Below, piece by piece: positions 12,742 to 39,060 of a DNA stretch of 39,060 nt. The DNA lies in assembly GCA_023229785.1 (NCBI GenBank), contig JALNYV010000021.1, positions 1-39,060 on the forward strand, in the 5' to 3' direction. This DNA is from Candidatus Dojkabacteria bacterium. Lineage in GTDB: Bacteria; Patescibacteria; Dojkabacteria; SC72. Numbering within the stretch: position 1 is the first letter of the stretch; each line of letters starts with the position of its first letter. The notes below the pieces were generated by a model, which saw nothing but the letters and a program-made list of their open reading frames with translations, searched no databases and was not told the origin of the DNA. Position numbers and translations under genes: made by a program.

Positions 12742-13550
12742 ACAAATGGAAAATTATTAAATCTTGTTAAGTATAATTCTCTTGCTGGGTTTGGTTGGGT
12801 CTGTGTCTTTAACTTATCCCAACACTCTCTTAAATCGTGTTCTGTTTCGTAATTCCAAATATCTGCGTATTTAATTCTAGTAATAGGATACTGACCATTT
12901 AATACACTCTTTGCTGTAACCTCGGAAAAACCATCGTGGAAGTTTGGTCTAAATCCTGCTTGATAACCTTTAATCTCTTCGTTTAATTGTGCTTCGGGAA
13001 CTTTCCCGTGGTAAATAACATTAGGTAAATCTTTGTCTTTTTCTCCTTTATTTATCCCATAAACGTGAAACTCTAATTGTGGGTCTTTTTCTGCCCATCT
13101 TTTTGCAAGTGCTAGTCCATATTCGTCTTCTCTCGCTGGGTGAGCACACAACCATACTTTCCATTTACCGTCTTCTGGTACTTTGAATGTAGGTTGATAA
13201 CTATTTACATCATCTAAGAACGAAGGTACTATTTTTGCTTCTATACCGACATCGTGAAGTTCTGTCTGCTCAATCTCGTTCTCGCAATAATGTTCTGTCT
13301 CTGGGTAATTTTTCAAAATCCTTCTTCTTTCATAGTCCGAAATAACTCTTGTAATATCTGAACCACACCAAAAAACTATTCTCTTTGTAAAGTCCATTTC
13401 AAATACTGCAAAATCTCTTTCGTGATAAAGTCCGAAGAAAACACACTCTGTGTCTGGGTCATCAACGCCATCCCATTCTTTGAGTCCCCACGTTCTCTCG
13501 GCTTTCTCTTTAAAACCAATTACACTACTGCTGACACGTAATTTAGCCAT
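12726..13550 (-). CDS. Glycosyltransferase, GT-B-like
   Basis: A 274-residue protein with the shape of the C-terminal half of a GT4-type enzyme. WKVWLCAHPAREDEYG begins the donor domain, FHVYGINKGE and NVIYHGKVPEAQLNEEIKGYQAGFRPNFHDGFSEVTAKSVL follow, and SEVTAKSVLNG takes the place of the usual E-x7-E donor motif. The N-terminal acceptor half is reduced. It starts at the stop of the next upstream glycosyltransferase (13550). It likely adds one sugar in the glycan assembled by this block. Confidence in glycosyltransferase identity is moderate. Confidence 0.55.
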   Translation of the reverse strand: MAKLRVSSSVIGFKEKAERTWGLKEWDGVDDPDTECVFFGLYHERDFAVFEMDFTKRIVFWCGSDITRVISDYERRRILKNYPETEHYCENEIEQTELHDVGIEAKIVPSFLDDVNSYQPTFKVPEDGKWKVWLCAHPAREDEYGLALAKRWAEKDPQLEFHVYGINKGEKDKDLPNVIYHGKVPEAQLNEEIKGYQAGFRPNFHDGFSEVTAKSVLNGQYPITRIKYADIWNYETEHDLRECWDKLKTQTQPNPARELYLTRFNNFPFVCKQA

Positions 13551-14449
13551 TATTTGAATTTACTTAATATTTCTGCAACCCTGTGACCCAAGGTCTGTGA
13601 TTTAACAAACGCTTGTCCTGTCTTCGCTATTCCTTTTCTTACTGCGTTTGACTTCTTATCTAATATCATTGAAAGCGTAACAAAAAGGTCTTGTTCTGTG
13701 TAGTAATCAATATAATGTGTACCATCTACAAATCCTGCTTCCTGTAAGCCGTATGCTCTAGGGTGTATTGGTACTCCACCACTGGCGAGTATGTTATAAA
13801 TTCTATCTGACCAAAAGAAATCATCAAACGGATAAGAAGGAACAATCACAACTTTTGCTGATTTGCAAACATTGGAAAAATCCTTTCCATATTTGTCGTC
13901 AAATAGTTTAAACTTATCTCCAAACTTTTCCTTTAACCATTCGAATTGTTTTACTCTATCTCCGTACAATGTACCGAGCATAGCAATATCACATTCTAAT
14001 TCTGGTTTCTTCTTGCCGTTCTTTAGTCTCTCAGATGCACCTGGGTGTAAGGGTATAATCTTTTCATTCTCAAATCTTCTTGTCCAAGTTTCGTCAACCA
14101 TATACATATAATCTACGTGTGGGAGTAGAGATGTAACAATCTTCATTTTCCCTCCCATCACTCTGTCTAAGAACCAACATACCTTCTTACAGGTCATTCC
14201 CTCTAGTAAGGTAGTAAGTCTTTCTAACATCAACTGAACATAGAAATCATTGTTCTCTGGGATTAAAGCGTGGAATAAAAACACATCACACTTATTAGCC
14301 TTTAAGATAATCTTTGTTAGGTCTTCATTCTCAGCAAATTCCCTCAAATCAACCTGTACTACTTCTGCTTGTTTCTTCAACGAGTAAAGAATATCCTGGT
14401 CTATCGTTGGTACTTCTGATTTAAAATTTCCGAAATATAGAACCTTCAT
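13550..14449 (-). CDS. GT-B glycosyltransferase (CgeB-like)
   Basis: A 299-residue protein. It starts MKVLYFGNFKSEVPTIDQDI, contains KCDVFLFHALIPEN, and has CDIAMLGTLYGDRVKQFEWLK, which opens the donor domain. It ends with VIVPSYPFDDFFWSDRIYNILASGGVPI, the conserved NDP-sugar loop of glycosyltransferase family 1 / CgeB-like proteins found in phages and capsule clusters. It is the first gene after the capsid gene in transcription order, separated from it by an 86-base gap holding a hairpin. Role: sugar transfer in the cytoplasm; acceptor unknown. Confidence 0.7.
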   Translation of the reverse strand: MKVLYFGNFKSEVPTIDQDILYSLKKQAEVVQVDLREFAENEDLTKIILKANKCDVFLFHALIPENNDFYVQLMLERLTTLLEGMTCKKVCWFLDRVMGGKMKIVTSLLPHVDYMYMVDETWTRRFENEKIIPLHPGASERLKNGKKKPELECDIAMLGTLYGDRVKQFEWLKEKFGDKFKLFDDKYGKDFSNVCKSAKVVIVPSYPFDDFFWSDRIYNILASGGVPIHPRAYGLQEAGFVDGTHYIDYYTEQDLFVTLSMILDKKSNAVRKGIAKTGQAFVKSQTLGHRVAEILSKFK

Positions 14450-20080: not shown

Positions 20081-20560
20081 TTATATATTGTTATATTTTC
20101 TGCTGTTGCAACTCCCACACAACGGTTGTATATTTTCGATATTATCTGAACCCCCCTTACTAACAGGGATAATATGGTCGTGAGTTAACTTTATTTCTGG
20201 TTCTGATTTATGGCAATATAAACAAGTCCAGTTGTATTGTGCCTTTAAATTTTCCCATTCTGTAAAGGTATGTGAACCACCGTTATTACTTTTCCTAAAT
20301 TCTCTCCTTCTTTGTATAAATGATTTATAACCAGGTTTTTTAGTCCTACCGTCTTTCCATGCTGGATTTTTATCTCCAATAAATCCAACTTTTCCAAGCC
20401 AGTACCTTGTTGGATTTTTTAATTTGGCTTGTCTATACTTTTCCTTTTGTTCGGGCGTTCTAACTTTTCCCTTATTGCCAACCCCACGCTTGTTATTAAG
20501 CATAAATTTGCTGAATTTCTCACGTGTTTCTTTAGTTCTTTTATAAACTCCTTTTGGCAT
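20081..20560 (-). CDS. NUMOD-HNH homing endonuclease upstream of terL
   Basis: A 159-residue protein with N-terminal NUMOD-like repeats (KGVYKRTKETREKFSKFM; GKVRTPEQKEKYRQAK; IGDKNPAWKDG) and a C-terminal HNH core (NWTCLYCHKSEPEIKLTHDHIIPVSKGGSDN, then IQPLCGSCNSRKYN). The core matches the classic McrA-like HNH with HDHIIP and N-x-LC. It ends 3 bases before the terL ATG. Its first 20 bases overlap the orphan 19-codon frame that resembles the terL start. Likely a homing endonuclease targeting terL of relatives. Confidence 0.85.
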   Translation of the reverse strand: MPKGVYKRTKETREKFSKFMLNNKRGVGNKGKVRTPEQKEKYRQAKLKNPTRYWLGKVGFIGDKNPAWKDGRTKKPGYKSFIQRRREFRKSNNGGSHTFTEWENLKAQYNWTCLYCHKSEPEIKLTHDHIIPVSKGGSDNIENIQPLCGSCNSRKYNNI

Positions 20561-20759: not shown

Positions 20760-21230
20760 TTAAATATGTATCTTTATCTCTGGTTTCTCTGGTTTTAAAT
20801 TCCAATGATTTCTTCTCATATATTCTCTATATTCTTTATCCTCTAAGGTCTTGATAGCGTGACAATTATGGCAAAGAGTTGTTCCATTACTAACATCGAA
20901 CATCAGTTCTGGATATATTGCTTTACTTTTAATATGGTCTGCGGTAAGTACTCTCCCGTCCTGATTACCACATTTTTGGCAAGTATAATCGTCTCTTCTT
21001 TTAACGGCTTTTTTCCACGAACTTAAATTTTTACCATCTTTCCAACTACCACTTTTTTCTCCAAATTTCCCTTTGTTTGCTTCACTTAATTTCTTTTTTG
21101 TAGAATCTGATAAATGCCTTCCCTTCATATAATTTTTCAGAAAATTAATGTTTGTGGGCATTCTCCCCTCCATTGCAGTTCTTATTTTTTCCTTATGCTC
21201 TTCTGGCATTTTGTATCCTACTTTTGTCAT
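20760..21230 (-). CDS. NUMOD3-HNH homing endonuclease
   Basis: A 156-residue protein: MPEEHKEKIRTAMEGR and KGRHLSDSTKKKLSEANKG are NUMOD3-type repeats, GEKSGSWKDGKN is a linker motif, and the HNH core is YTCQKCGNQDGRVLTADHIKSK with NGTTLCHNCHAI. Its 5' end overlaps the last 13 codons of the DegT aminotransferase in another frame, so the aminotransferase C-terminus (after KEFN) is probably foreign sequence. It appears intact. Confidence 0.85.
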   Translation of the reverse strand: MTKVGYKMPEEHKEKIRTAMEGRMPTNINFLKNYMKGRHLSDSTKKKLSEANKGKFGEKSGSWKDGKNLSSWKKAVKRRDDYTCQKCGNQDGRVLTADHIKSKAIYPELMFDVSNGTTLCHNCHAIKTLEDKEYREYMRRNHWNLKPEKPEIKIHI

Positions 21231-22278
21231 TGAATTCTTTTATACATTTAATAATATAATCGCATTCAAAATCTTCAAGTTCGGGATACAGTGGCAGTGC
21301 TATTGCTAACTTTGCCAACTTCTCTGTCGCTGGTAAACTACAATTTAATTTCAGTGCAGGATGTTTGTGATTTGGAACGTGGTCTCTCACTAAAGTTTCT
21401 ATCCCTTTGCTTTTAAGGTAAGCTGCTAACTTCTCTCGTTCTTCTGAGGTGTAGATGTAGTTCTGTGGAGTTTTCCAGTTCATTCCTAGTCCCTTGTTGT
21501 ACTTTTCGCAAATTTCTAATCTCCTTTTAATCCACATTGGCAACCACTGTATTTTAAAGTTTAAAATCGCTGCCTGTAGGTTATCTAGTCTTGAGTTATA
21601 TCCAAACTCGGTCATTAGGTTGTCTTCTACCTTCTCACCACCCTTCAGTCTCTTTTGTGCATTGTCTCTTAAAACCTTAATCCTGTCAGAAAGAACTTCA
21701 TCATCTGTTGTAATCGCACCACCGTCTCCGTAGCATCCGAGCATTTTCGCTGGATAAAATGAAAAACATTTGATTATTCCATTTGCTGTTGTTTTGACTC
21801 CACACGCTTGTGCTGAGTCTTCAATAATAGGAATCTTATCTACTATCCTCTTTAATTTTTTAATATCCACTACTGCTCCATTCATATGAACTGGAATAAT
21901 AGCCTTTGTTCTCTTGGTAATTTTCCTTTTAACCCGCTCTAAATCCATTAACATATCGTCTCCGATATCTACCAAGACTGGTTTGGCTCCCACATTATGA
22001 ATTGCCGCTATGGTTGCTATGAATGTATGAGATGTGGTAATGACCTCGTCTCCTTTACCGATATTCAAAGCCTTTAAAGCAAGGAATAAAGCATCTGTAC
22101 CAGAGTTGAGTCCTACTGCGTATTTCTGTCCTACTAGTTTAGCAAGGTTATTTTCAAACGCCTCAACATCTTTTCTAAGTATTAAATCTCCGTTTCCTAA
22201 ACACTCTTTAATAATGCCATCAATATATTTTTTGTATATTCTATAAGAAATCTTATAGTTGACGAATGGTATTTTCAT
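21193..22278 (-). CDS. DegT/DnrJ/EryC1 sugar aminotransferase
   Basis: A 361-residue PLP enzyme with the full family signature: FIATIAAIHNVGAKPVLVDI, AIIPVHMNGAVVD, IIEDSAQACG (PLP contacts), SFYPAKMLGCYGDGGAITT with the catalytic Lys, and EFGYNSRLDNLQAAILNFK. It transfers an amino group from glutamate to a keto-sugar nucleotide. With the CapD-like dehydratase next to it (4-base overlap) it could make a 4-amino-6-deoxy sugar. With the distant WlbA-like enzyme it could act as the 3-aminotransferase. The last residues (DKSRIQNARRA) lie in the HNH overlap and may be non-native. Confidence 0.9.
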   Translation of the reverse strand: MKIPFVNYKISYRIYKKYIDGIIKECLGNGDLILRKDVEAFENNLAKLVGQKYAVGLNSGTDALFLALKALNIGKGDEVITTSHTFIATIAAIHNVGAKPVLVDIGDDMLMDLERVKRKITKRTKAIIPVHMNGAVVDIKKLKRIVDKIPIIEDSAQACGVKTTANGIIKCFSFYPAKMLGCYGDGGAITTDDEVLSDRIKVLRDNAQKRLKGGEKVEDNLMTEFGYNSRLDNLQAAILNFKIQWLPMWIKRRLEICEKYNKGLGMNWKTPQNYIYTSEEREKLAAYLKSKGIETLVRDHVPNHKHPALKLNCSLPATEKLAKLAIALPLYPELEDFECDYIIKCIKEFNDKSRIQNARRA

Positions 22279-23054
22279 AATATATAAAATTTATCTTTTT
22301 TAATTGCTCTTTTACTTTCTTCTAAGGTCATCAGTTCCTCCTCTAACTTCTCACCTTCTTTGGCACCAGTGTATTTAATTGGATAACCAGGGAACATTTC
22401 TTTGGCTACGTCCTCAACTAATCTCTGTTCTCCCATATCCAGTATAATAGTCCCTTTCATTTTAGTAGCTTGGATTACTAATTCACACGCTTGTGGTATT
22501 GTCATCCAGTATCGTTTCATTCTCTTGTCGGTAATGGTTAAAGGTTTCCTTTCTTTAAACTGCTTCTGCCAAATCGGTATCACGCTTCCACGGGAGCCTA
22601 AAACGTTCCCAAATCTCACGACCACTCCACCAGCTCTCTTTACCATTATCTCCCCCAGGAGTTTTGTTGTTCCCATTAGGGAAGTTGGGTTTACTGCTTT
22701 GTCGGTGCTTATGAACACTAGCTTTGATTTGTACTTTTCGCATAGTTTTATAATATTTAAAGTTCCTATTACGTTAGTTAAGACTATCTCTTCCATGTGT
22801 TCTCTTTCAAAGTTGGAGAGATGCTTATAAGCTGCTGCGTGGTAAACTACTTTAGGTTTGTACTTCTCAAATAACTCAGCAAGTCGTTCTCGGTTCCTTA
22901 TGTTCGCAATCTCGGGGATAACTTCCTCTAAGTCAAAGACTCCTGATTCGTCTTGGTCACACGCAATTACTGTGTTTTTATTGGTTAGTTGTTTACACAA
23001 TTCAGATCCTATAGACCCAGCGGCTCCCACCACAAATACATTATTTTTTGCCAT
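22275..23054 (-). CDS. SDR sugar dehydratase (CapD/FlaA1-like)
   Basis: A 259-residue NAD(P)-dependent enzyme. VVGAAGSIGSELCKQL is the GxxGxxG site, AAAYKHLSNFE and FISTDKAVNPTSLMGTTKLLGE are hallmarks of UDP-GlcNAc 4,6-dehydratases, and VVRFGNVLGSRGSVIPIW binds substrate. The usual catalytic Tyr is Met (LMGTTK), as in the CapD/WbpM branch, while the Thr-Asp-Lys is kept. It would form a 4-keto-6-deoxy sugar for the DegT enzyme encoded next. It overlaps the HNH gene by 14 bases at its start. Confidence 0.88.
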   Translation of the reverse strand: MAKNNVFVVGAAGSIGSELCKQLTNKNTVIACDQDESGVFDLEEVIPEIANIRNRERLAELFEKYKPKVVYHAAAYKHLSNFEREHMEEIVLTNVIGTLNIIKLCEKYKSKLVFISTDKAVNPTSLMGTTKLLGEIMVKRAGGVVVRFGNVLGSRGSVIPIWQKQFKERKPLTITDKRMKRYWMTIPQACELVIQATKMKGTIILDMGEQRLVEDVAKEMFPGYPIKYTGAKEGEKLEEELMTLEESKRAIKKDKFYIL

Positions 23055-23532
23055 TAAAGTAATTTATCCAATAATTTCTTCTCATTTTATGCGTTGTCTT
23101 TGTATGACAACTTTTGCACAATGTTATTAAATTATCTGTATTGCAATTAAATTTATCGTAATCTATGTGATGAACCTCGTTCCCGTATTGGCTACATACT
23201 TGGCAAATATAATTATCTCGTTCTCTAATTGCTCTTTTAAGAGATTGTGTCCAGTCTACTGAATAAATATCTCCTCTTCCTTGATAGTTCCAGTGCTTCT
23301 CACCTGTCTGTGCTAATCCTATAATTCTTTTGGTTTCTTCTGAGTGATGTCCACCTTTAAACGGAGCAACCTTGGTTTTATATATCTTTTTAAGTGTTTT
23401 ACTAATCTTATCTATTGTTTCGGGTTTTTGTTTAACTCCTTTTTTAAATTGTTGCGGAAGATTTTTAGCCCATGGAGCTGGTTTCCCTTTGTTCCACGGA
23501 GTAAAACCTTTTGTAAATTGACCTAAATTCAT
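23041..23532 (-). CDS. NUMOD-HNH homing endonuclease
   Basis: A 163-residue protein. GFTPWNKGKPAPWAKNLP and GGHHSEETKRIIGLAQTGEKHWNYQG are NUMOD-type elements. The HNH core is NYICQVCSQYGNEVHHIDYDKFNCNTDN and then LITLCKSCHTKTTH. It sits exactly between the two sugar genes (ATGA overlap with transketolase C-half at 23529-23532; 14-base overlap with the dehydratase), leaving both intact. Confidence 0.85.
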   Translation of the reverse strand: MNLGQFTKGFTPWNKGKPAPWAKNLPQQFKKGVKQKPETIDKISKTLKKIYKTKVAPFKGGHHSEETKRIIGLAQTGEKHWNYQGRGDIYSVDWTQSLKRAIRERDNYICQVCSQYGNEVHHIDYDKFNCNTDNLITLCKSCHTKTTHKMRRNYWINYFNGKK

Positions 23533-36324: not shown

Positions 36325-36397
36325 TTGTTTTTATTTAATTATATTCCCTTTTGTTGATATTAACCTCCTATCATTGGGAACTATGTATAACTAAACA

Positions 36398-37084
36398 CTA
36401 ATCCTTTGAATTTTTGAGAAGTCCAACAATCATATTTTTTATTTCAGGAATATGTAAAATCTCTTTTACAAAATACTCCAAATTAGTTTGTTGGTCTGCT
36501 GTGCGAATTTTTATAATTTCATCATAATCAATCCCAAAAAGTTGGCACAATTCTTGTCCTGTTAAAATTTCCTCCATTGAAAATTTATGTTTTAATCCGT
36601 CATAGATTTCCTTTTTAGTCCTCGCATTGAAACTGCATAAATAAATTGCGGTAGAGTATGGTAATTCAGAGGATATGTCGTTTGTAAAATTATGCAAAGT
36701 CGTATGCTCACCGCTCGCTTTTTTCGTATCAAACTGGTCGCCATCTTTAACCTCTACAATGTAGCATATTCTTTTGTGCGGATTAAAACCTAAAAAATCA
36801 GGTTCATATTGAGAGTTTATTTTCTGTGATTGCTTTACCTGCCTTTTAGTGGCGACAAAAATCTTATCCTCTCCGTCCAATAATGTCCGAGTAAGGAAGT
36901 CGTCCAAGTTATCAATCTTATTAACCCGTTCCATTATCAATTTTTCAAGTTCCGTTCCTGCCGAGATAGACGCTCCTTGTATTTTACTTATAAGATTTCC
37001 TAAAAAAGGTATGCCAAAAAGCCGAGTGTATCCGCTCGGTGATTGATTTTCTCGCCTACCTTTTGCATTTTGTATTAGTGCCAT
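36398..37084 (-). CDS. Probable type II restriction endonuclease, PD-(D/E)XK
   Basis: A 228-residue protein. Residues 94-113 hold EPDFLGF...ICYIVEVKDGDQ: Asp96, Glu111 and Lys113 form the PD-x(14)-ExK site, with Glu45/Glu47 upstream (GTELEKL) as in many type II enzymes. KKASGEHTTLHNF follows. It lies 15 bases downstream of the methyltransferase and 22 bases inside the IS end. The pairing makes restriction most likely; a Mrr- or nicking-type nuclease is possible. Recognition site unknown. Confidence 0.65.
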   Translation of the reverse strand: MALIQNAKGRRENQSPSGYTRLFGIPFLGNLISKIQGASISAGTELEKLIMERVNKIDNLDDFLTRTLLDGEDKIFVATKRQVKQSQKINSQYEPDFLGFNPHKRICYIVEVKDGDQFDTKKASGEHTTLHNFTNDISSELPYSTAIYLCSFNARTKKEIYDGLKHKFSMEEILTGQELCQLFGIDYDEIIKIRTADQQTNLEYFVKEILHIPEIKNMIVGLLKNSKD

Positions 37085-37099
37085 AATTGGTAATGTTAA

Positions 37100-37882
37100 T
37101 TACCCCATTATATCACAACCGAGAAAGTTTCTGCCAGCCCTTTGAGCCGATTTCATTACTGAAAATCCGCCAGCCGAAGGGTCAACAACAATGTCGTCCT
37201 TATCAGTCGTGGCTTTGATTAAACGCTCCTGTAATGAAACAGGTTTAGCGTGTGTGTGGTTTTTATCGCCATTCTCTATTTTCTCGCTCCAAACGTCTGG
37301 TATGTCGTGTATAACCCATATTCCTTTTGCTCGGACAGGCGGTTTTTGTAAAATAAGCAAATGCTCTGAATATCTGCGTGAGCGATAGCCCATTCCCATT
37401 CTTTCTTTATTCCACGTTATCATATCAACCAACTGCAAAGAGCAACCCTCTAAAATGGTATGAACGCCAGAAACTAAAATAAATTTATCAATCCACATCA
37501 TTAAATGTCCGCTCGGTATTAAAACCCTTTCAATCTCTTTGAGAAAATGCTTAATCTGCACGTTTGTTTGCTGTGGAAGTTCTGCCCTCTTTTTACTTCT
37601 GCCCTCGCCCTCATTTCCGTAGTTCTGCTTATCCATAACGCTCCGATATTGAGGGTCAAAGAAAACAAGAGGTATTGTCTTGTCGTCCAAGAGTTTCAAC
37701 ATTTTCAATCCGTCCATTTTCTGCCTTTTATTCAATTTGAGTTTAGGGTCAAGCGTTATTTTAGGCGACTGCAACAGGCGTTCCGATGAAAACACGCTCC
37801 GCAGATTTGGTCTGTATTTCGCTACCGCTTCCACGACTTCCCCGAACTCCTGCTCTAACGGCTCTATAATTTGTTTTCGCAT
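37100..37882 (-). CDS. DNA N4/N6 methyltransferase
   Basis: A 260-residue protein. The catalytic motif is IPLVFFDPQYR (DPQY, residues 76-79), followed by NYGNEGEGR; the SAM motif DPSAGGFSVMKSAQRAGRNFLGCD lies at the C-terminus (from 234). This order is the beta class (m6A or m4C). HLMMWIDKFIL and DMITWNKERMGMGYRSRRYSEHLLIL match related phage and prophage methylases. Its first 40 codons overlap the transposase in another frame. It would protect DNA from the adjacent nuclease. Confidence 0.85.
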   Translation of the reverse strand: MRKQIIEPLEQEFGEVVEAVAKYRPNLRSVFSSERLLQSPKITLDPKLKLNKRQKMDGLKMLKLLDDKTIPLVFFDPQYRSVMDKQNYGNEGEGRSKKRAELPQQTNVQIKHFLKEIERVLIPSGHLMMWIDKFILVSGVHTILEGCSLQLVDMITWNKERMGMGYRSRRYSEHLLILQKPPVRAKGIWVIHDIPDVWSEKIENGDKNHTHAKPVSLQERLIKATTDKDDIVVDPSAGGFSVMKSAQRAGRNFLGCDIMG

Positions 37883-38789
37883 AATTATTAGTTAGTTTCT
37901 TATAGTTTAACGCATTTTGCTTATTGCTACAAACTGCGTCCAAGAAAGACATTGATTGTCCTCCGTTGGATAATTTGAAACAAAACTCATTAACATATCT
38001 TTGTAAATGTTTTTTTGATAAATGGTGATAAGTTCCATTAACTCCACGCTTAAAAGTAGCCCACACGCTTTCAATGCTGTTAGTCCCTGCAATACCTCTG
38101 ACATATTCGCCCTTGCTGTGATTTACAACGTGGTGCTTATATCCTTTTTTCGTAATACCTCTGTAAGAAGTGTAGTCGTCTGAAAAAATAGCGGAGTTTT
38201 TTAATACGTTGGTTTCAATCAGTTTGTGCATTTCAAATTTTCCTGTGCTATCCATAACTTTTCCGACAATTTTTCCGTTTCTTTCTCTCATTCCTACGAT
38301 TGCAATTTTTCCAACTGCTCCACGTCCCTTAATAGTTCTTTTGTTGGCGTGTTTATTCTTTTCTTTTCCACCGATATAGGTTTCGTCAATTTCAATCTGT
38401 CCTTTTAATTTTCCATATTCATAACACGCTTCCCTTATTCTTTGTCCCATAAACCACGCTGTGCGTTGCTGAACGCCCAACTGCTCGGCTAATGCTATTG
38501 AGGATATGCCCTTTTTGGCTATTCCCATTAAATACATAGCAAGCAACCAAGTTCTTACTGGAACGTGCGAACCCTCCATAATCGTTCCTGTCTTAACCGT
38601 AAATTTGCGATTGCATTTTGAACACTTGTAAGGTTGCAAACTCTTTCCCTTATAAACCTTTACGCTGTTGCAATAAGGACAAGTCGGCTCATCTGCCCAT
38701 CTTTTTTCTGCGAAAAAGTCCTCTGCTGATTTTTCAGTAGGGAATTGTTTTGTTAAGAATTTTGCTACACCTAATTTTTTGCTTTTCAT
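37761..38789 (-). CDS. IS1595-family (ISXO2-like) transposase
   Basis: A 342-residue protein. The N-terminal zinc ribbon is CPYCNSVKVYKGKSLQPYKCSKC (Cys 37, 40, 56, 59). The catalytic domain has IEIDETYIGGKEKNKH (Asp135), FSDDYTSYRG (Asp204) and TNSIESVWATFKRGVNGTYHH (Glu240), then HLQRYVNEFCFK. This is the IS1595 pattern. Residues after about 302 (Arg/Gly/Ser-rich) overlap the methyltransferase start and look like read-through. The core is intact, so it could be active. Confidence 0.9.
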   Translation of the reverse strand: MKSKKLGVAKFLTKQFPTEKSAEDFFAEKRWADEPTCPYCNSVKVYKGKSLQPYKCSKCNRKFTVKTGTIMEGSHVPVRTWLLAMYLMGIAKKGISSIALAEQLGVQQRTAWFMGQRIREACYEYGKLKGQIEIDETYIGGKEKNKHANKRTIKGRGAVGKIAIVGMRERNGKIVGKVMDSTGKFEMHKLIETNVLKNSAIFSDDYTSYRGITKKGYKHHVVNHSKGEYVRGIAGTNSIESVWATFKRGVNGTYHHLSKKHLQRYVNEFCFKLSNGGQSMSFLDAVCSNKQNALNYKKLTNNYAKTNYRAVRAGVRGSRGSGSEIQTKSAERVFIGTPVAVA

Positions 38790-38827
38790 ATTGTTTTAGG
38801 ATATGCTTATATTGTATCCTATATTCC

Positions 38828-38856
38828 ATTATATTCCAATCAAGAGGTGTTGTCAA
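38828..38856 (-). promoter_or_regulatory. Perfect consensus sigma-70 promoter of the IS element
   Basis: Minus strand TTGACA (38856-38851), exactly 17 bases, TATAAT (38833-38828), about 38 bases before the transposase ATG. The -35 sits inside an inverted repeat GTGTTG/CAACAC that could hold a repressor. A second symmetric element AGGATA/TATCCT lies between -10 and ATG. Confidence 0.85.
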
Positions 38857-38883
38857 GTATTTGGCAACACTAAACGCCTCATC

Positions 38884-39060
38884 TTAAAAACCTGTTTTAG
38901 TGTTATAAAATACATAGTTCCCTATCTTAAGTCTAGATTCTAAACTATGTGGATTTTTTATACCAATATTAGCAATACTAATTTTCTTTCTATGCTCTTC
39001 TGATAAATGCTTACCCCACATTGGATTTTTATTACCAAGTTTATTTAAGCGACACTTTTC
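38884..39060 (-). pseudogene. NUMOD3-type HNH fragment, 3' part
   Basis: Continuation of the fragment at 1-185 seen at the other end of the circular sequence: codon 14 onward, through GNKNPMWGKHLSEEHRKK, then SLESGLKIGN and, beyond the IS boundary at 38922, YVFYNTKTGF encoded by the IS end, stopping at 38884-38886. The HNH core that should follow is absent on the far side of the IS as well. Confidence 0.75.
38915..39060. repeat. Terminal overlap of the circular assembly, right copy
   Basis: Matches 1-146 with one mismatch (38934 versus 20). See the left copy. The first eight bases are the end of the IS element. Confidence 0.9.

Follow-up and report, generated by a model that had tools for sequence, protein, structure and literature searches.

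A restriction-modification operon in a phage genome as the probable cargo of an IS1595-family transposon

How does a type II restriction-modification (R-M) system reach a phage genome? The question is raised by a contig of Candidatus Dojkabacteria (GCA_023229785.1, JALNYV010000021.1, positions 1 to 39,060; this whole stretch of 39,060 nt is called the window here), in which a transposase, a DNA methyltransferase (MTase) and a restriction endonuclease (REase) are all encoded on one strand within 36376-38922. A preliminary description, drawn from the letters alone, had taken these genes for a complete type II system that travels by transposition and has entered a phage. Our analysis makes it very probable that the unit is an IS1595-family transposon with exchangeable cargo, here a type II R-M operon, residing in a phage genome, and that a short leader peptide at the start of several cargo proteins, the window MTase among them, goes with the transposon and not with the cargo family. 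The coordinates are collected in Table 1.

The main evidence is the recurrence of the same three genes in two other places. In the viral contig L024, where a terminase is also matched, the transposase, MTase and REase match those of the window at 57%, 68% and 63%, in the same order. The element measures 3028 bp and has 14/14 ends and an exact 8/8 duplication, AAAATTAA; when its flanks are joined with one copy of the duplication kept, an open reading frame (ORF) that is HNH-like by eye ends at the next start. The second locus, L218, lies in a bacterial genome from the phylum of the SAR202 metagenome-assembled genome (MAG) G385, which we take to be Chloroflexota. There a window-type transposase-MTase-REase unit of 2447 bp has 14/14 ends and the exact 8/8 duplication TATTGAAT on both sides. 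Copies of the unit bounded by inverted ends and 8-bp duplications, such as the preliminary description had proposed to look for, are found, and they indicate that the window-type unit is a real R-M transposon and not a set of chance neighbours. A side feature of the L024 element is a tRNA-Gln (ttg) gene on the minus strand (L024:652-725), between its end and the transposase.

Several observations would suit an ordinary R-M operon lying beside an unrelated insertion sequence copy, with inverted repeats by luck. The same R-M family occurs with neither a transposase match nor a GGGAACTAT-type end pair in L001-L006, L008-L010, L012 and L025 (L007 ends at the MTase), the pair is found on Campylobacter plasmids, and the window copy has no target duplication. 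As the pair is found outside phages with no transposase beside it (in loci of this kind and on Campylobacter plasmids), the R-M family extends beyond the transposon. However, the two elements above enclose all three genes within matching ends and exact duplications, which largely refutes a chance association, and by an indirect measure the relatives of the proteins also seem to occur together. The protein database searches were evaluated on the best 120 of 289, 7094 and 2075 matches, with equal longest-contig size as the sign of co-occurrence (one MTase row had no such size). Among these listed matches, 23 sizes are common to REase and transposase relatives, 14 of them at least 5 kb, against a mean of 1.6 and a maximum of 7 in a jittered-size control; 14 sizes occur in all three lists, and MTase and REase relatives have 38 in common. 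The leader matches described below, which sit at the transposase stop, weigh on the same side, and we consider a chance association very improbable. In a Bacteroidetes MAG, a transposase fragment (140 aa, 34%; L011:6800-7216) stands just before a window-type R-M pair, perhaps as the remnant of a decayed element.

The window copy itself has a DDE transposase with a zinc ribbon, as is characteristic of the IS1595 family; it matches the NCBIfam IS1595 model at 4.9e-58, and its ORF is intact, as had been described. The conserved part stops near 37887, and the tail, which is also present in P0121, overlaps the MTase gene by 122 nt in another frame. The reported 13-bp terminal inverted repeats prove exact, and at 79% identity their arms can be followed to 29 nt. 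Of 5000 first-order shuffles, 10 produced a perfect 13-bp inverted repeat between 250-bp flanks. Within the window, GGGAACTATGTAT has only two matches at up to 2 mismatches, a number that 37 of 100 shuffles reach at this setting (mean 1.22). Both ends fit the IS1595 feature of repeats beginning GGG, and GGG-N3-TATATAC is found in many relatives. The perfect match to a sigma-70 promoter proposed for the genes on this strand is there as well, upstream of the transposase, in a scan that gave 11 sites overall against 9.4 in shuffles. A DNA pattern made on the transposase end matched the L024 contig alone, and named phage and plasmid records held no match to the window element as DNA.

The insertion site does not show that this copy transposed into place. 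The window copy has no 8-bp target duplication, its flanks reading TTAAGATA and AATGATAG, and for this reason we limit the claim for this insertion to an IS1595-type element. The missing duplication would fit a unit that entered by transposition and is now immobile, one flank lost or rearranged after insertion, and kept by the phage for the R-M genes only. The duplication is likewise missing from several relatives that carry R-M genes between good ends (2/8 in L142, 1/8 in L089, 4/8 in L150 and 3/8 in L138). On the other hand, the copy retains an unbroken transposase ORF and exact ends. The contig ends differ as two variants (T and C) with TAGTTCCC at the junction in both, and because the terminal repeat begins inside the transposon end, both variants carry the transposon junction. 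Immobility of this copy seems possible but rather doubtful. The proposal of a complete type II system that is carried by an IS1595-type transposon and has entered a phage is well supported by the duplications of L024 and L218 and by the terminase and head protein genes of the contig, except that the window copy shows no duplication of its own.

The phage nature of the contig follows from its large terminase (phrog_2, 2.9e-42) and major head protein (phrog_267, 1e-15), the pair of genes by which a tailed phage is recognised; 10 of 20 scanned window proteins have a PHROG match. The contig is probably circular or complete, and as positions 1-146 are repeated at the other end with one mismatch, it probably represents an entire phage genome, some 38.9 kb long. 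Composition gives no hint of foreign origin. Four phage relatives found through the terminase (L037-L040), possibly fragments, contain no MTase match, so that in these four records no such MTase was encountered outside the inverted repeats; no empty site was found.

The MTase belongs to a type II family, and its DPQY precedes DPSAGGF, which is the beta order and agrees with the class given earlier. The adjacent gene encodes a type II REase with catalytic residues. On its designation as a PD-(D/E)XK nuclease the indications differ: PADLOC places it in REase_II, and the structure comparison that had been suggested gave a type II enzyme as the best match, but Pfam has no nuclease match for it. 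A PDB sequence search returned four chains at E 0.42-0.51 only, and a PDB search with the REase profile no chain. Across 37 relatives the catalytic residues do not vary.

This invariance bears on the idea that the MTase is the selected gene, shielding phage DNA from host restriction, while the REase merely travels along or is inactive. Phages often have lone MTases, and the related elements L085 and L139 carry an MTase with no nuclease seen. Against it stand the conserved residues and the 38 longest-contig sizes common to the listed MTase and REase relatives, and we judge it unlikely. In 50,697 named phage records, tblastn gave no match to the REase at E <= 1e-5, nine records for the MTase (23-40% identity, none covering 80%) and five for the transposase. 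Since such records give few or no matches, the evidence for the pattern comes from metagenomic contigs and MAGs. Relatives of the REase in viral contigs numbered none with the single-sequence query and four with the alignment query; in 379 genomes of the phylum of G001, the only match was G001 itself.

We then placed the unit within a wider sample of IS1595 loci. Of 311 viral loci found by the transposase-alignment scan the best 80 were kept, and together with the earlier matches they made 79 distinct viral loci; 71 distinct loci from bacterial genomes (prophages possibly included) bring the set to 150. Ends with an exact 8-bp duplication were recovered at 45 of these 150 loci, and at none in each of 10 shuffles. 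At 22 of the 79 viral loci there is no ORF of 90 aa downstream of the transposase, and 55 of the remaining 57 first ORFs were counted (the very long L100 and L137 were excluded). By Pfam, 12 of the 55 are MTase or specificity genes, against 0 of 69 upstream control ORFs (at least 120 aa, 69 loci; Fisher 2.8e-5). The count of 12 treats each Pfam family match as a separate protein, and it excludes L091, L117 and L111, which resemble MTases by eye. At the genome loci the proportion is 4 of 36 first downstream ORFs. In the phylum of G385, where 30 loci of 33 matches were examined, an MTase was read directly behind the transposase in five (L194, L202, L211, L214 and L218; that of L192, at +904, is excluded), and in the phylum of G001 in none of 30 loci, some of which end at contig ends.

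The R-M genes found in this position are unrelated to one another (Table 1), which suggests that the cargo is exchangeable. The partner of about 246 aa next to the C5 MTases of L132 and L142 has no Pfam match and can be called a restriction enzyme by position only. Other cargo recognised by Pfam comprises P63C (two) and KilA-N (two), in the viral and genome sets each. The phrog_2 terminase profile is matched in 10 of the 14 viral records whose cargo is R-M or MTase-like, and also in 11 of 14 control genomes; PF03354 finds a terminase in none of eight viral records. None of the three plasmid records examined, of 466 with an IS1595 relative, has an R-M annotation. Two further cargo genes are PAPS-reductase-like by eye (L077:5010-5804 and L143:2920-3732), the L143 element having an exact duplication.

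The window MTase begins with the leader MRKQIIEPLEQEFGEVVEAVAKYRP. Among the listed window-family MTases, an IIEPL-like start is present in 16 of the 21 that share a longest-contig size with a transposase (three are annotated too short) and in 41 of the remaining 99 (10 too short); it was not seen by eye in the MTase homologues L001 and L002. We built a profile from 17 leader-bearing MTases, with the pattern IIEPIxxxFxxVVxAVA, and ran it on the 5820 ORFs of the 150 loci. The top 12 rows represent 11 ORFs (L221 is listed twice), with E up to 0.043, and all of them begin 3 to 49 bases ahead of the point where the transposase stop codon ends; as background, 60 of the 5820 ORFs begin within -60..+10 of it. 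Ten of the 11 lie outside the MTase family of the profile, the exception being L028 on the L024 contig. Some scores are weak: the leader of L218 itself scores E 9.6, and L074 scores 0.48.

A second profile describes a small ORF that follows the transposase in 58 of the 79 viral loci, in 40 of which it overlaps the transposase by 4 bases; it mostly has 37-62 aa and ends in a basic tail. Because ORFs close to the transposase stop served as seeds for the profile, this position cannot count as independent evidence. The sequence is about MKxPPxxLDxIxDxVLAYRPKPKSKPAKKR (for example L125:4888-5055 and L075:4885-5016). No genome locus matches at 20 bits, and five small ORFs scanned had no Pfam match better than 0.12. 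In L132 the small ORF is the start of the C5 MTase, and 66 of the 79 viral loci have either leader or small ORF. The two profiles align in hhalign over 21 columns with probability 82 and E 1e-5 (a single comparison), whereas by hmmsearch their likeness is weak, with a best E of 0.0007 one way and 0.058 the other.

The small basic ORF may be an accessory transposition peptide. It is quite possible, if still somewhat doubtful, that the leader is a by-product of the junction, the 3' end of the transposase region having supplied the beginning of the cargo and the peptide being functionless in itself: all 11 best ORFs start at the transposase stop, the leader codons of the window overlap the transposase tail, and the simple profile search finds little likeness to the free ORF. 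However, the peptide is recognisable on unrelated proteins of distant elements, and in 58 of the 79 viral loci the transposase is followed by a small ORF, about 40-60 aa long. A bolder proposal, to which we give little credence at present, is that this IS1595 branch encodes a small conserved peptide, free or fused N-terminally to captured cargo, that holds this cargo at the transposase or at the ends of the transposon. Both R-M MTases and cargo that binds DNA (P63C, KilA-N) would then act in cis on the element. Such a tether would be a built-in cargo port through which one transposon family swaps defence systems between phages and bacteria.

Table 1. Features of the window and cargo of related IS1595 loci
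Feature	Position or locus	Strand	Remarks
Terminal inverted repeat, REase end, GGGAACTATGTAT	36376-36388	+	exact 13/13 match to other end
REase, type II, 228 aa, predicted PD-(D/E)XK type	36398-37084	-	PADLOC REase_II PDLC03487 3.5e-54
MTase, type II N6/N4, 260 aa	37100-37882	-	PF01555 (N6_N4_Mtase) 2e-18; PADLOC PDLC03271 4.6e-79
MTase N-terminal leader, MRKQIIEPLEQEFGEVVEAVAKYRP	37808-37882	-	codons overlap transposase tail
IS1595-family transposase	37761-38789	-	PF12762 (IS1595 DDE domain) 3.2e-40, zinc ribbon; NF033547
Sigma-70-type promoter match, TTGACA-17-TATAAT	38828-38856	-	12/12
Terminal inverted repeat, transposase end	38910-38922	-	exact 13/13
Small phage ORF	35995-36324	-	REase side of insertion; holin-like by eye; no firm family
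NUMOD3 (homing endonuclease-type) ORF, 3' end	38884-39060	-	PF07460 5.4e-07; runs into transposon end
Terminal repeat of contig	1-146		matches 38915-39060 with one mismatch
Window-type R-M cargo	L024, L218		
MvaI/BcnI-type R-M cargo	L029, L089, L036		broken frame in L036
C5 MTase and ~246-aa partner	L132, L142		L132: 7/8 duplication; L142: 14/14 ends, 2/8 duplication
N6 MTase and type I specificity subunit	L150, L138		
D12-type MTase and PDDEXK_11	L194		exact duplication
D12-type MTase and NotI-like enzyme	L211		ends not seen
Leader on MvaI-type MTases	L029, L089		
Leader on P63C-type bodies	L080, L219, L221, L151		by eye
Leader on KilA-N-type body	L146		by eye
Leader on further cargo kind, ~350 aa	L115:4929-5999, L102:4899-5942, L220		no Pfam match in L102, L115

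The 5' part of the NUMOD3 ORF at the insertion lies at the window start, across the repeated contig ends. Two other phage genes, at 20081-20560 and 23041-23532, are of HNH endonuclease type. Genes of glycosyltransferase (13550-14449), aminotransferase (21193-22278) and nucleotide-sugar epimerase (22275-23054) type are also present and perhaps serve sugar decoration.

The layout suggests that one promoter just inside the transposase end would read through transposase, MTase and REase in turn, and because the MTase gene begins before the transposase gene has ended, the genes are probably translation-coupled. By comparison with the two relatives, the transposase would move the unit between its GGG...TAT ends and make 8-bp duplications. 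Families, residues and fold indicate that the MTase would protect the target site and the REase cut unmodified DNA. The pair would probably prevent loss of the element and turn the cell or phage that carries it against unmodified DNA. In a phage, the MTase could methylate the phage DNA before the nuclease acts, and the pair could attack competing DNA. It is plausible that the pair would protect the phage and exclude competitors.

Although the mobility of R-M systems is well known, the vehicle has seldom been defined to the exact base. The elements described here, of about 2.5 kb, form one family that carries several unrelated R-M systems, both in viral contigs and in bacterial genomes, and their ends and duplications are open to direct testing. 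The common leader on unrelated cargo is unexpected and offers a handle on gene capture by such elements, and the unit bears on how phages acquire a restriction nuclease. A literature search by titles and abstract openings found no account of R-M cargo in IS1595 elements or of a shared cargo leader; the founding IS1595 paper (Siguier 2009) lay outside its scope, so an earlier mention is possible. The available portions of the IS1595 accounts in PMC9296519, PMC9208149, PMC6211672, PMC8370563, PMC3339403 and PMC7285500 contain neither.

Neither R-M cargo in transposons nor the carriage of passengers by IS1595 is new. Tn7-like transposons spread defence genes, and R-M is the commonest such cargo, according to the part of PMC8649781 available. 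This cargo is common to them and to the window element. Tn7-like elements are larger and multi-gene, whereas the window element has 2.5 kb, one transposase and two cargo genes. The PaeR7I R-M genes, in the accessible text of PMC3031569, moved with the help of insertion sequence copies. There a plasmid-borne system joined chromosomal IS1 or IS5 copies, while the window system lies within the ends of a single element. On Campylobacter coli/jejuni plasmids an MTase and an REase are adjacent, and 5 of 72,556 plasmid records contain this REase, with 42% identity over 94%; unlike in the window, no transposase is annotated in the 7.6-kb stretch, and the plasmid MTase is annotated at 220 aa. A plain IS1595 member has 14-bp repeats starting GGGG and 8-bp A/T-rich duplications (PMC12561309, in the portion available). 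Passenger-carrying members (tIS) have also been described, such as tISCpe8, a lincomycin resistance element, and MTnSag1, a mobilisable transposon, which, as far as the available part of PMC5704250 goes, likewise unite an IS1595-type transposase, terminal inverted repeats and passengers in one element. The window element differs from these two in its type II R-M cargo, the leader on its MTase and its residence in a phage.
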